38,910 bases of DNA from contig CANJEY010000002.1 of assembly GCA_947472615.1 (NCBI GenBank), positions 1 to 38,910 on the forward strand, written 5' to 3'. The stretch is from Beijerinckiaceae bacterium. GTDB lineage: Bacteria; Pseudomonadota; Alphaproteobacteria; Rhizobiales; Beijerinckiaceae. The notes under the pieces were generated by a model. The model searched no databases. It saw nothing but the letters and a program-made list of their open reading frames with translations, and was not told where the DNA came from. Shown here piece by piece: positions 11,192-29,764 of the stretch (position 1 is the first letter of the stretch; each line of letters starts with the position of its first letter). Position numbers and translations under genes: made by a program.

Positions 11192-11371
11192 TTACGGAGG
11201 GCCGACGCGGCCACGCCGCACAAAGCCGCCGATCAGCGAGATCACCAGCAGCACAATCGCCACGTAGAACACGATCTGCGCCGCCGACATGGCGGTTCCG
11301 GCGAGACCGCCGAAACCGAGCGCGGCGGCGACGAGTGCGATGATCAGAAACGTAATGGCCCAACTGAGCAT
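11192..11371 (-). CDS. DUF1328 small membrane protein (YtjA-like)
   Basis: [60 protein letters not shown] upstream of the ATG. Confidence 0.9.
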
Positions 11372-11514
11372 GGAATTCTCCTTTGGCGGACGCTCTTGCA
11401 GAGCTGACCGACAGACGGCCACGCCAGCAATTTTGTTCCGCAGCGCTCGGAGCGGCACTAAAATCCCCGCTGCCCGGCGCTCTTAACCAAACCCTGACGC
11501 ATTTGTTGAAAATT

Positions 11515-11529
11515 GTACAAAAAGAGAAC
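11515..11529. promoter_or_regulatory. Candidate LexA (SOS) box, one mismatch to alphaproteobacterial GAAC-N7-GAAC / GTTC-N7-GTTC
   Basis: GTAC AAAAAGA GAAC; lies downstream of a TTGAAA -35-like hexamer (11506-11511) and 33 bp upstream of the ATG at 11563. Confidence 0.5.
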
Positions 11530-11562
11530 ATACCATGATCATCGTTGGTATGGAGCAAATCG

Positions 11563-11664
11563 ATGATCCTCCGCAGTCTCCTCTCGGGCATGGCCGAAAT
11601 CGCCTCGCTGGGCGCCTTCCTCTCGATGATCGCCTGCTTCGCCAAGGCCGCCGGCGGCATCTGA
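11563..11664 (+). CDS. Candidate 33-aa hydrophobic micropeptide MILRSLLSGMAEIASLGAFLSMIACFAKAAGGI
   Basis: GGAG (11552-11555) 7 nt before the ATG; 31 of 33 codons end in G or C; hydrophobic core; below the ORF-track length cut-off. Confidence 0.6.
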   Translation: MILRSLLSGMAEIASLGAFLSMIACFAKAAGGI

Positions 11665-11748: not shown

Positions 11749-14700
11749 GTGAGTCGCATCCTCGACGAGGTTGGTTTCGTCCATCTGCACGCGCACACGG
11801 CGTTTTCGCTACGCGAAGGCGCGCTGACCATCGCGAAACTGGGCGCGTTCGCCAAAGCGGACAAGATGCCGGCGCTCGCCATCACGGACGTCAACAATCT
11901 GTTCGGCGCGCTCGAATTCTCCGAGAAGATCTCCAAGGACGGCATCCAGCCGATTATCGGCATCCACCTCACTGTCGATTTCGGCGACGCCGCGCAATTC
12001 GGCGGGCGCTCGCCGCATTCCGACGCCGGCCGCGCCGCGCTGGTGCTGCTCGGCCAGACGGAGGCCGGCTACGCGAACCTAATGAAGCTCGCCTCGCACG
12101 CCTGGCTTGGCCCGGAGCCGGGCGACACGCCGCACGTGTTGCTGCCCTATCTTGAACGATATTGCGAAGGCCTCATCGCCCTCACGGGTGGTCCAACCGG
12201 CGCGCTCGATCAGGCGTTTCGCGCCTCGCGGCCCGATGTGGCGCTGGCGCGGCTCGGGCAACTCGAACGCCTGTTCGACCGCAAGCTCTATGTCGAACTG
12301 CAACGCCACGGATTGCGCGAGGAACAGCAGATCGAAGCCGAATTGCTGGCAGCAGCCTATGAGCGCGGTCTGCCACTTGTCGCCACCAATGAGCCCTATT
12401 TCGCCGCGAAGTCCGACTATGAGGCGCACGACGCGCTGCTCTGCATCGCCGACGGCGCGCTGATCAGCGACGGCAATCGCCGCCAGTTGACGCCTGAGCA
12501 TCGCTTCAAGACACGCGCCGAAATGAAGCAATTGTTCGCCGACATTCCCGAGGCGACGCGCCACACGGTCGAGATCGCGATGCGTTGCGCCTATCGGCCG
12601 CGCACACGCAACCCGATCCTGCCGCGGTTCACCAGCCTCGACGGCTCCGCACTCGACGAAGTGGCGGAACTGCGCCAGCAGGCTGAAGATGGACTGGCGC
12701 AGCGGCTGCAGGAACACGGCTGCGCGCCGACATTCACCGTCACCGATTATCAGGAGCGTCTCGCGTTCGAGCTCGACATCATCACCCGGATGAAATTTCC
12801 CGGTTACTTCCTGATCGTGTCTGACTTCATCAAATGGGCAAAGGCGCAGGGCATTCCGGTCGGTCCAGGGCGCGGTTCGGGCGCGGGCTCCGTCGTCGCG
12901 TGGTCGCTCACGATCACGGATCTCGATCCGATGCGGTTCGGCCTGCTGTTCGAGCGCTTTCTCAATCCCGAACGCGTGTCGATGCCCGATTTCGACATCG
13001 ACTTCTGCCAGTATCGCCGTGACGAAGTGATCAAATATGTGCGCGAACGCTATGGACGCGAACGCGTCGCGCAGATTATCACGTTCGGCTCGTTTCTGGC
13101 GCGCGGCGTGATGCGCAACGTCGGGCGCGTGCTGGAAATGCCGCTCGGTCAGGTCGACAAGCTCGCCAAGCTTGTGCCACAAAATCCGGCCGCGCCCGTC
13201 AGCCTGAAACAGGCGATCGAATCCGAGGCTCGCCTGCGCGAAGCAGCCGAAGGCGACGAACGCGTCGCCCAGATGCTGAGCATCGCTGAGAAGCTGGAAG
13301 GCCTCTATTCCAACGCCTCGACCCACGCCGCCGGCATCGTCATCGGCGACCGCCCGCTCGATGAATTGGTGCCGCTCTACCGCGACCCGAAGTCCGACAT
13401 GCCGGCGACGCAGTTCAACATGAAATGGGTCGAACCCGCCGGCCTCGTGAAGTTCGACTTTCTCGGATTGAAGACGCTCACGACGCTTTCCACCACCGTG
13501 AAACTCATCGCGCAGCGTGGGATCGACATCGACATTTCGAAGATCCCGCTCGACGATAAGAAGTCTTACGAAATGCTCGGTCGGGCTGAGACGATCGGCG
13601 TGTTCCAGGTGGAAAGCGCCGGCATGCGCAAGGCGCTCGCCGAAATGCGCGCCGACCGGCTGGAAGACATCATCGCGCTTGTGGCGCTGTATCGTCCCGG
13701 CCCCATGGCGAACATCCCGACCTATTGCGCGGTCAAGCACGGCGAGCAGGAGGCCGATTACATCCACCCTCTGATCGAGCCGGTGCTGAAAGAAACCTTC
13801 GGGGTCATCATCTATCAGGAACAGGTGATGCAGATCGCCCAGATCCTGTCGGGATATTCGCTCGGCGAAGCCGATCTGCTGCGCCGCGCGATGGGCAAGA
13901 AGATCAAGGCCGAGATGGATGCGCAACGCGAGCGCTTCGTCAGCGGCGCGACGCAGCGCGGCATCACCAAGGCGAAGTCGGACGAGATTTTCGACCTGCT
14001 GGCCAAATTCGCCGACTACGGATTCAACAAGAGCCACGCGGCCGCCTATGCGCTGATCGCTTATCAGACAGCATGGTTCAAAGCCAACTATCCAGTCGAG
14101 TTCATCGCCGCCTCGATGACGCTCGACAAGGGCAACACCGACAAACTCTCGGAATTCCGCAACGAGGCGCAGAGGCTCGGCATCCGTATCGAGCCGCCGT
14201 CGATCAATCACTCGGGCGTCGACTTCGACGTGCGCCCCGGCGCGAATGGCGCATTGTCGATTTACTATGCGCTATCTGCCGTGAAGGGCGTTGGCGTCGG
14301 ACAGGCCGAAGCGCTGGTGGCGTCGCGAGGCGAGCGGCCGTTCCGCGATCTCGCCGACTTCGCGCATCGCATCAATCCGCGCGAGGTGAACAAGAAAGTG
14401 CTCGAAAGCCTTGCGGCTGCGGGCGCTTTTGACGGGATCGAGCCCGATCGCGCGCGATCCTTCGGGTCGATTGAAACGATCCTGCGCGTCGCCAATCGTG
14501 TTCAGGAAGAGCAGAACGCCGGACAGAGCGCACTGTTTGGCGGCTCCGATCCCTCTGCTTCGTTCGTCATGCCGAAGACGCCGCCGTGGGCCGCCGCCGA
14601 ACGCCTGCGCCGCGAGTTCGACGCGGTCGGCTTCTTCCTGTCGGGGCATCCGCTGGACGACTATGCGGGCGTGCTCAAACGTCTGCGCGTCGAGCGCTGG

Positions 14701-15213
14701 GCCGACTTTGCGCGCGCCGTCAAACACGGCGCATCGGGTGCAAGACTTGCGGCGACCGTGCTCGACCGCACGGAACGGCGCACGAAATCGGGTTCGAAGA
14801 TGGGCATCGTGACGCTGTCCGATCCATCCGGCCAGTATGAGGCGATCATGTTTCAAGAGGCGCTGAATCAATATCGCGACATGCTGGAAAAGGGCGCGGC
14901 CGTGCTGGTGACGTTGCAGGCGAACCTCGAAGGCGACGACGTGCGGGCGCGCATCGTGGCCGTCGATGCGCTCGAAACGGCCGCGAGCCGCATCCAGAAA
15001 GGCCTGCGCATTTTCGTGCGCGACGAGACGCCGCTGCCGTCCATCTCGCAGCGTCTCGCGGTGCGTGGCGAAGGCGAGGTCTCGCTAGTGCTGATGCTGG
15101 AAAAGGATCGCAGCGAAGTCGAGGTGAAACTGCCCGGCAAGTTTCAGGTCAGCGCGCAGGTCGCGGGCGCCCTGAAGGCGATTCCCGGAATCGTGGCTGT
15201 GGAGCACTTCTAG
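11749..15213 (+). CDS. dnaE: DNA polymerase III alpha subunit, replicative DnaE1 type
   Basis: PHP domain FVHLHAHTAFSLREG; PGRGSGAGSVVAW, MPDFDIDFCQYRRDEVI, SNASTHAAGIVIGDRPL, KFADYGFNKSHAAAYALIAYQTAWFKANYP; GTG start with SD GGAG preferred over the upstream TTG at 11683. Confidence 0.96.
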   Translation: MSRILDEVGFVHLHAHTAFSLREGALTIAKLGAFAKADKMPALAITDVNNLFGALEFSEKISKDGIQPIIGIHLTVDFGDAAQFGGRSPHSDAGRAALVLLGQTEAGYANLMKLASHAWLGPEPGDTPHVLLPYLERYCEGLIALTGGPTGALDQAFRASRPDVALARLGQLERLFDRKLYVELQRHGLREEQQIEAELLAAAYERGLPLVATNEPYFAAKSDYEAHDALLCIADGALISDGNRRQLTPEHRFKTRAEMKQLFADIPEATRHTVEIAMRCAYRPRTRNPILPRFTSLDGSALDEVAELRQQAEDGLAQRLQEHGCAPTFTVTDYQERLAFELDIITRMKFPGYFLIVSDFIKWAKAQGIPVGPGRGSGAGSVVAWSLTITDLDPMRFGLLFERFLNPERVSMPDFDIDFCQYRRDEVIKYVRERYGRERVAQIITFGSFLARGVMRNVGRVLEMPLGQVDKLAKLVPQNPAAPVSLKQAIESEARLREAAEGDERVAQMLSIAEKLEGLYSNASTHAAGIVIGDRPLDELVPLYRDPKSDMPATQFNMKWVEPAGLVKFDFLGLKTLTTLSTTVKLIAQRGIDIDISKIPLDDKKSYEMLGRAETIGVFQVESAGMRKALAEMRADRLEDIIALVALYRPGPMANIPTYCAVKHGEQEADYIHPLIEPVLKETFGVIIYQEQVMQIAQILSGYSLGEADLLRRAMGKKIKAEMDAQRERFVSGATQRGITKAKSDEIFDLLAKFADYGFNKSHAAAYALIAYQTAWFKANYPVEFIAASMTLDKGNTDKLSEFRNEAQRLGIRIEPPSINHSGVDFDVRPGANGALSIYYALSAVKGVGVGQAEALVASRGERPFRDLADFAHRINPREVNKKVLESLAAAGAFDGIEPDRARSFGSIETILRVANRVQEEQNAGQSALFGGSDPSASFVMPKTPPWAAAERLRREFDAVGFFLSGHPLDDYAGVLKRLRVERWADFARAVKHGASGARLAATVLDRTERRTKSGSKMGIVTLSDPSGQYEAIMFQEALNQYRDMLEKGAAVLVTLQANLEGDDVRARIVAVDALETAASRIQKGLRIFVRDETPLPSISQRLAVRGEGEVSLVLMLEKDRSEVEVKLPGKFQVSAQVAGALKAIPGIVAVEHF

Positions 15214-27919: not shown

Positions 27920-28099
27920 GGCGAGCTCGATATCATCGGGCACTTTTGGGACGGCGCGCCCTGAAGGTCAAGCCGGGGCCTCGTTGAGGGCGGCCACCGG
28001 GTTCCAGTCGACTTGACGACCGCATTCGCGGAAGTGTCACGCCATCTTCGTCCTGTCGTCGAACGACTCAGTCATCAGGCCGCCAGACAGGAGCGGCCC

Positions 28100-29764
28100 A
28101 TGACTTTCTCAACCGACTTCACGCGTCGAGGCGTTCTGTGCGGCGCGGCCGCAGCACTCACGATTCTGGCGCCGGGCGGCGCGGCGCGAACGACGCAGCC
28201 AAGTATCGCGCGCGGCCGCGTCCGGACGGCCGACGGAGCCGGCGTCCCGGGCGTCATGGTCACCAATGGAAGGGATGTCGTCACGACAGGCGGCGACGGA
28301 CAATACGAACTGTCTGTGAACCGCGACTGCATCATCTCGGTCGTCAAGCCGTCCGGTTACGCAATCGCACTGGACCCAGACACGAAACTGCCCCGGCACT
28401 ATTACGTCCACCGGCCAACTGGATCGCCGGCGCATATCCCGTTCGCCTACCCCGGCGTCGCCGCCACTGGGCCTTTGCCGTCATCGATCGATTTCACGCT
28501 GACGAAGCGCGATGAGCCCACCGCATTCAACGTCATCCTGTTCGCCGATCCGCAACCTGAAACCGACGCGGAGGTCGACTTCATTCGCGATGGCGTCATT
28601 CCGGCCGCAGCCGGTGTGGACGCCGCGTTCGGCGTCACGCTTGGCGATATCGTCGGCGACGATCTCTCGCTCTACGGCCGGATTAACGGTCTCATCGGGA
28701 CGCTCGAAAAGCCCTGGTACAACGTGTGCGGCAATCACGATCTGAACTACGAATCGCCCGACAATTCCTTCGCGCGCGAAACCTTCATCCGCACGTTCGG
28801 CCCGTCGCACTATGCGTTCGAACATGGCGAAGCGATGTTCATCATGCTCGACAACGTCGTCTACGAAGGCGCCGATCCGACCGAGCCCGGCCAGATGGGC
28901 CGCTACCACGACGGCATCAGCGACGAGCAACTGGATTTTGTGGCGAATGTTCTCGCGCGCACGCCGCCAAGCCGGCTCATCGTGCTTGGGATGCACATTC
29001 CGCTGCGCTCGCGCCGCGACCACAGCGGGCGTGAGATCGCTACGGATGATTGCGCCCGTCTGCTCGACATCATCGGCGACAGGCCAGCTGTCAGTTTCGC
29101 GGGCCATACGCACATGGCCGAACACCGCTACATCTGGCGAACTGGGGCCGGTGCGCCCCACCATCATCAGGTGCTCACCACGGTTTGCGGTTCATGGTGG
29201 AGCGGACCGTTCGACCGGCGAGGCGTCGCCATCGCCGATGCCTGCGACGGCGCGCCCAGCGGGTTCTATGTTCTGTCCGTCAATGGCAATTCGTGCCGGA
29301 CCACATTCCGGCCAACCAACGAACCGGCGGCCCGGCAGGTGCGCGCCGTTCTGTGCGAACGCCCTGAAGCCGAATATGCAGGCAAGGTCACGCCGAAGCT
29401 CCGACGCGCGACACTGCGCGCCCACGAGGCGCAGACCACCGAAATCGTCGCCAATGTGTTCGACGGCGGACCACGTACGCTGGTCTTCTGCAGCGTCGAT
29501 CACGGCCCCGAAATCGCCATGCGGCGCGAAGACCGGACCGATCCATTCGTCGCAGCGGTTTATGCGAACAATCGCGAGGCCATCAAACCATGGGTCAAAG
29601 CCGAGCGCTCGACGCATGTCTGGGCTGCGCCCCTGCCGGGCGACCTGACCCCCGGCGCACATGCGATCTCAATCCGCGCAACTGACGAGTTCGGCCGCAC
29701 CCATCGCGAAACGCTGGCGTTCGAAATCCAGTCCAGCGACCGCATGATCGCCGGGCGCGGCTGA
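28100..29764 (+). CDS. Tat-exported calcineurin-like metallophosphoesterase with N-terminal beta domain
   Basis: Tat-like TRRGVLCGAAAALTILAPGG; NVILFADPQ, VTLGDIVGDD, NVCGNHDLNYE, IVLGMHIPL, SFAGHTHMAEH. Confidence 0.88.
   Translation: MTFSTDFTRRGVLCGAAAALTILAPGGAARTTQPSIARGRVRTADGAGVPGVMVTNGRDVVTTGGDGQYELSVNRDCIISVVKPSGYAIALDPDTKLPRHYYVHRPTGSPAHIPFAYPGVAATGPLPSSIDFTLTKRDEPTAFNVILFADPQPETDAEVDFIRDGVIPAAAGVDAAFGVTLGDIVGDDLSLYGRINGLIGTLEKPWYNVCGNHDLNYESPDNSFARETFIRTFGPSHYAFEHGEAMFIMLDNVVYEGADPTEPGQMGRYHDGISDEQLDFVANVLARTPPSRLIVLGMHIPLRSRRDHSGREIATDDCARLLDIIGDRPAVSFAGHTHMAEHRYIWRTGAGAPHHHQVLTTVCGSWWSGPFDRRGVAIADACDGAPSGFYVLSVNGNSCRTTFRPTNEPAARQVRAVLCERPEAEYAGKVTPKLRRATLRAHEAQTTEIVANVFDGGPRTLVFCSVDHGPEIAMRREDRTDPFVAAVYANNREAIKPWVKAERSTHVWAAPLPGDLTPGAHAISIRATDEFGRTHRETLAFEIQSSDRMIAGRG

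Follow-up and report, generated by a model that had tools for sequence, protein, structure and literature searches.

The window analysed here, a stretch of 38,910 nucleotides from a Beijerinckiaceae bacterium, contains upstream of dnaE a 33-codon open reading frame (ORF), which an earlier note made from the sequence alone had read as an unannotated SOS micropeptide resembling the Caulobacter division inhibitor SidA. Direct reading of the sequence confirmed the elements on which that proposal was built: the ORF, the TTGAAA hexamer, the GTAC-AAAAAGA-GAAC motif and the GGAG-N7-ATG arrangement all lie where the note had placed them, and 31 of the 33 codons end in G or C, the exceptions being AGT and GAA. 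The locus comprises the following features:

11192..11458, reverse strand: DUF1328 small membrane protein, the divergent upstream neighbour, lying outside the unit and marking its 5′ limit
11506..11511, forward strand: −35-like hexamer TTGAAA, aligning with TTGA(C/A) of the relatives, 17 nt before a CATAAT-like hexamer
11515..11529, forward strand: LexA box GTAC-N7-GAAC (7 of 8 positions), the positional equivalent of the perfect GAAC-N7-GAAC of the relatives, starting 48 nt before the ATG
11526..11540, forward strand: second LexA-like site GAAC-N7-GATC, GAACATACCATGATC (7 of 8 positions), overlapping the first box and sharing its intact half-site
11529..11534, forward strand: CATACC, a weak counterpart of the −10, 17 nt downstream of TTGAAA (mostly CATAAT, CATATT or CATTAT in the relatives)
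11552..11555, forward strand: Shine-Dalgarno sequence GGAG, 7 nt before the ATG at 11563
11563..11664 including the stop codon, forward strand: very probable SidA-family micropeptide gene of 33 aa, assigned from the ORF as read directly, its relatives and profiles
11749..15213, forward strand: dnaE1, DNA polymerase III alpha subunit, the neighbour in most relatives too

The ORF at 11563–11664 translates as MILRSLLSGMAEIASLGAFLSMIACFAKAAGGI, for which a single helix spanning residues 2–31 was predicted (pLDDT 91), and searches of Pfam and NCBIfam with this peptide returned no match. An alternative in-frame start, TTG at 11545, would yield 39 aa and was disfavoured; ATG 11563 is preferred because both the alignment with relatives and the Shine-Dalgarno sequence point to it. 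The likely start of dnaE1, a full Pol III alpha by Pfam, is GTG 11749, 84 nt past the stop codon of the peptide. A generic promoter scan of the window gave no passing sigma-70-like promoter. Short inverted repeats (ATACCATGATCATCG/TTGGTAT and GATCATCG/TCGATGATC) are found at 11530–11571, between the LexA box and the start codon, and could fold as a hairpin covering the Shine-Dalgarno sequence.

The 33-aa peptide was searched against 149 genomes of the family to which the window belongs (E ≤ 1), and relatives were detected in 54 of them, representing 25 of 43 genera, with nearly all matches located in short open frames. Among 20 family loci that were fetched, that of the window included, dnaE was present downstream within the fetched DNA in 17, and the peptide usually lies 14–215 nt upstream of it. 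All 20 loci bear a LexA box near the start, perfect in 18 and matching 7 of 8 positions in the window and in L004, so that the joint conservation of peptide and upstream box, which the earlier note had suggested looking for, was indeed recovered. The same note had named lack of ORF conservation as one outcome that would speak against it; pN/pS in the family was 0.58 in frame, compared with 0.94 and 1.52 in the shifted frames, third positions being the most variable, and the Caulobacteraceae peptides gave 0.41 in frame, compared with 0.98 and 1.56. These values indicate that the relatives of the ORF are under codon-specific, protein-coding constraint, and the ORF of the window is almost certainly a real gene.

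Outside the order, the matches of a class-wide whole-genome HMM search were almost all fragments of long proteins, and this approach was therefore replaced by reading the DNA upstream of dnaE. Once dnaE had been mapped in genomes of the order and of the class, up to 900 bp before it were read and strict criteria were applied, namely a perfect box followed within 18–90 nt by a 24–50-aa frame with a Shine-Dalgarno sequence and a hydrophobic core. The strict unit was found in 44/89 genomes of the order, 16/106 in the rest of the class and 19/30 in Caulobacteraceae, and no such unit lay on the opposite strand (0/89, 0/106 and 0/30, respectively). In the rest of the class, the peptide is present in all 16 loci having a box; beyond the order and Caulobacteraceae, the short hydrophobic sequences have diverged very far, and some of them may not be related. 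The unit recurring across the class consists of a LexA box inside a TTGA(C/A)-N17-CATAAT-like promoter, a distance of about 48 nt, a Shine-Dalgarno sequence, a single-helix peptide of 29–36 aa, and dnaE1. Variants in arrangement were also observed: in L330 (G621) a SidA-like peptide (22.7 bits) lies on the strand opposite dnaE, with no box within 90 nt, and in L055 and L058 (family f192) about 580–660 nt separate the peptide from dnaE, compared with about 115 nt in their relatives.

One-mismatch LexA sites number 21 in the window against 29.4 expected from shuffles, and 94 of 100 shuffles reach 21; since the count is not above chance, the box was rejected as evidence by itself. It is regarded as more than a chance occurrence because its position matches that of the perfect boxes of the relatives between −35 and −10. 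In these relatives, the box sits between a TTGA(C/A) −35 and a CATAAT-type −10 with N17 spacing, and its distance to the start has a mode of 48 nt, the value of the window, with most values at 44–60 nt. The window shares this layout, except that one base of the box is substituted and the −10 (CATACC) is poor, and repression or promoter strength may therefore be weaker here. The published criterion for a Caulobacter LexA box is a match at 7 of 8 positions (PMC4211646), which is what the site at 11515–11529 shows, at the conserved position. Nothing better than a 7-of-8 box occurs in 6 of the 51 box-bearing loci of the order and in 8 of 26 Caulobacteraceae loci, and the box of the window falls inside the range of the family. 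Overlapping LexA-like sites similar to those of the window occur in L003 and L110 as well. The genome of the window encodes a LexA repressor with its own sites of the GAAC-N7-GAAC form: lexA, on C354, has a perfect box of its own (GAACACACCAAGAAC), and further perfect boxes belong to recA (GAACAAAAAAAGAAC), ssb (GAACATAAAGTGAAC) and an imuA-like gene (GAACAAATAGAGAAC).

The site directly upstream of dnaE1 is also that of sidA. Within genus g431, a 29-aa peptide immediately precedes dnaE and matches NCBIfam NF033228 (cell division inhibitor SidA) with 71.3 bits (E 4.5e-20), and named records, including Caulobacter vibrioides DSM 9893 and OR37 (C. vibrioides in L168 and L173), carry SidA before dnaE with the same boxes. 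SidA is described as a 29-aa protein (PMC4211646) encoded by CCNA_02004 (PMC11034885), and Caulobacter dnaE is CC1926 (PMC1839093); given the numbering offset visible in recN, which is both CC1983 and ccna_02062, the sidA locus tag is compatible with a place beside dnaE.

Profile comparisons link the families. An HMM built from the peptides of the order scored SidA at 18.5 bits, a value reached by 0 of 5,000 shuffles; for the window peptide the score was 11.5 bits (p 0.0008). In a blind test, the order-only HMM was positive in 26 of 30 Caulobacteraceae, all with a box within one mismatch, and in none on the opposite strand. With hhalign, P was 3e-7 for order and SidA, 1e-5 for family and SidA, and 2e-10 for family and order, the alignments having a common register around an invariant Phe, and 0 of 200 column permutations reached the real scores. 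Scored directly against the Caulobacteraceae HMM, the window peptide did not reach significance (p 0.057), and the claim of homology therefore rests on intermediates and synteny. The family HMM does not separate SidA from natural hydrophobic segments drawn from the same loci, a control that is conservative because true family members in longer open frames may be included in it. At the 35-bit cut-off of NF033228 the window peptide gives no match, and the best non-Caulobacter member reaches 13.2 bits; this model recognises only the Caulobacter peptide in the sample examined and appears to have been built on the Caulobacteraceae subgroup, so that the lack of a match means that the peptide is not an equivalog by NCBI's rule.

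Like SidA of Caulobacter crescentus/vibrioides, the window peptide is about 30 aa long and is encoded directly before dnaE1 with LexA-type boxes in front, and it shares with SidA a single hydrophobic helix with short ends and a mid-helix Phe following A/S-rich turns. It differs in having neither the Caulobacteraceae core FVWM(M/V)C nor an acidic residue 10 positions before the Phe (a Glu stands 7 positions before it), and its box matches 7 of 8 positions, whereas Caulobacter has one perfect box and two 7-of-8 boxes. Because the locus is the same and the profiles connect the families, homology is likelier than analogy, and the window peptide very probably belongs to the SidA family as a divergent, unannotated member. 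The reading of the earlier note, an unannotated SOS micropeptide resembling SidA, is thus supported by the conserved peptide and box, the shared locus and the profile link; the resemblance stands, and the relationship, for which the note had claimed no homology, can be raised to probable homology.

Other explanations of the ORF were weighed against this assignment. A chance open frame in GC-rich DNA would agree with a box no commoner than expected and with the long spurious frames that are plentiful in the window, but it is already contradicted by the comparative data, namely conservation, frame-specific constraint, synteny and the zero counts in the opposite-strand controls, and is highly improbable. 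As the most serious alternative, the ORF could be a uORF or leader peptide tuning dnaE1 expression, through which LexA would control the polymerase. The usual proximity to dnaE favours this, as does the fact that no terminator was found between the ORF and dnaE in the window; moreover, in Sinorhizobium meliloti, a member of the same order, a translated small ORF in the dnaE1 5′-UTR, sORF25, was found by Ribo-seq and proposed as a possible uORF, with no mention of SidA or SOS (PMC10117765). We set sORF25 beside the family of the window by its position and description. The Caulobacter member at the same site is, however, SidA, a division inhibitor in the literature (PMC4211646), and the conserved feature is a hydrophobic helix, not regulatory codons or RNA structure. 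Coupling to dnaE is, furthermore, not constant. In L002, L016 and L017 no dnaE was found in the 1.5 kb to the left or to the right: box and peptide adjoin a catalase-peroxidase-like gene (katG, named by eye) in L016 and L017, and in L002 the genes ahead of them are lolCD-like and the one after them is hydrolase-like (by eye), with no dnaE in 3 kb. In L007 (a 3096 bp locus) a VapBC/FitAB-like toxin-antitoxin pair (by eye), on the reverse strand at about 749–1428, lies between peptide and dnaE. As the unit is away or split from dnaE in these four genomes and the box is kept, they argue against a mere dnaE leader, which we consider unlikely. The toxin-antitoxin-like pair of L007 appears to be inserted, with LexA box and peptide intact.

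A further alternative retains both LexA control and homology with SidA, and proposes that the peptide no longer acts on FtsW, being for instance a toxin that depolarises the membrane in the manner of TisB or DinQ. Such small hydrophobic peptides are known among SOS products (PMC3567139, PMC11575346), and the strong sequence divergence, which has spared just a Phe and a few positions that are small or hydrophobic, would allow for such a change, whereas the site and register shared with SidA, together with an acidic residue that most of the order retains ahead of the helix, speak for an unchanged role; this change of target is distinctly unlikely. A search for an antisense RNA or antitoxin, confined to Rfam, gave no match.

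The best explanation, which we hold to be probable, is therefore a LexA-controlled inner-membrane division inhibitor of the SidA family, probably acting at FtsW/FtsI/FtsN. Cleavage of LexA in Caulobacter induces SidA, which interacts with both FtsW and FtsN and is believed to keep the FtsW/FtsI/FtsN subcomplex inactive, and mutations in ftsW and ftsI bypass it (PMC4211646); an FtsW/RodA-family protein is encoded in the genome of the window. By this model, LexA bound between −35 and −10 would repress the gene at 11506–11664, and DNA damage would lead through RecA activation to LexA cleavage and to synthesis of the 33-aa single-helix inner-membrane peptide. By analogy with Caulobacter SidA, the peptide would keep FtsW/FtsI/FtsN, the complex for septal cell-wall synthesis, inactive, delaying division until repair is complete. 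We infer the membrane insertion, the binding of LexA to the one-off box and the inhibition of division through FtsW; that the window peptide is a division inhibitor is, judged by analogy, fairly likely. Other small membrane proteins have comparable actions. DidA of Caulobacter is likewise a small membrane protein that inhibits division at the FtsW/I/N complex (PMC4211646), but it has 71 aa, its induction by DriD does not depend on SOS, it binds FtsN and it is encoded at an unrelated locus. YneA, SosA, ChiZ and DivS of Gram-positive bacteria are also small membrane proteins induced through LexA, and they arrest division at a late stage (PMC13396833); they are larger, have extracellular parts and belong to different phyla, and are likened here by mode of action, with no claim of homology.

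As judged from sequence comparison, the SidA brake appears to be spread across Alphaproteobacteria and not confined to Caulobacter. It is somewhat better than an even chance that the unit of LexA box, SidA-like peptide and dnaE1 goes back to the ancestor of a large part of the class and forms the unrecognised SOS checkpoint on division in rhizobia-like bacteria, carried together with the gene of the replicative polymerase. Systems of this kind are known; what is new, as far as the literature searched shows, is how far this one extends and its constant position before dnaE: no report was found there of SidA homologues beyond the Caulobacter group, nor of sidA before dnaE class-wide, though Modell et al. 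(2011) may hold an earlier remark. If this reading is true, a 33-residue peptide gene too short for annotation, ahead of the replicative DNA polymerase gene, would supply the missing SOS division inhibitor of many Hyphomicrobiales, and dozens of natural SidA variants would become available for mapping the FtsW contact. It would also suggest what translated small ORFs in dnaE1 leaders do, that of S. meliloti among them, and provide an annotation rule, i.e. a LexA box plus a hydrophobic ORF of 29–36 aa before dnaE.

Two further LexA boxes were noted. The sole perfect GAAC-N7-GAAC of the window, at 28307–28321, lies inside a long ORF (28013–29764, metallophosphatase-like by eye) and is probably due to chance. 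In L377 (G000:C76:7700-9600), a perfect box 27 nt before a gene for a TIGR03916 putative DNA modification/repair radical SAM protein suggests that this gene belongs to the SOS regulon of that genome.
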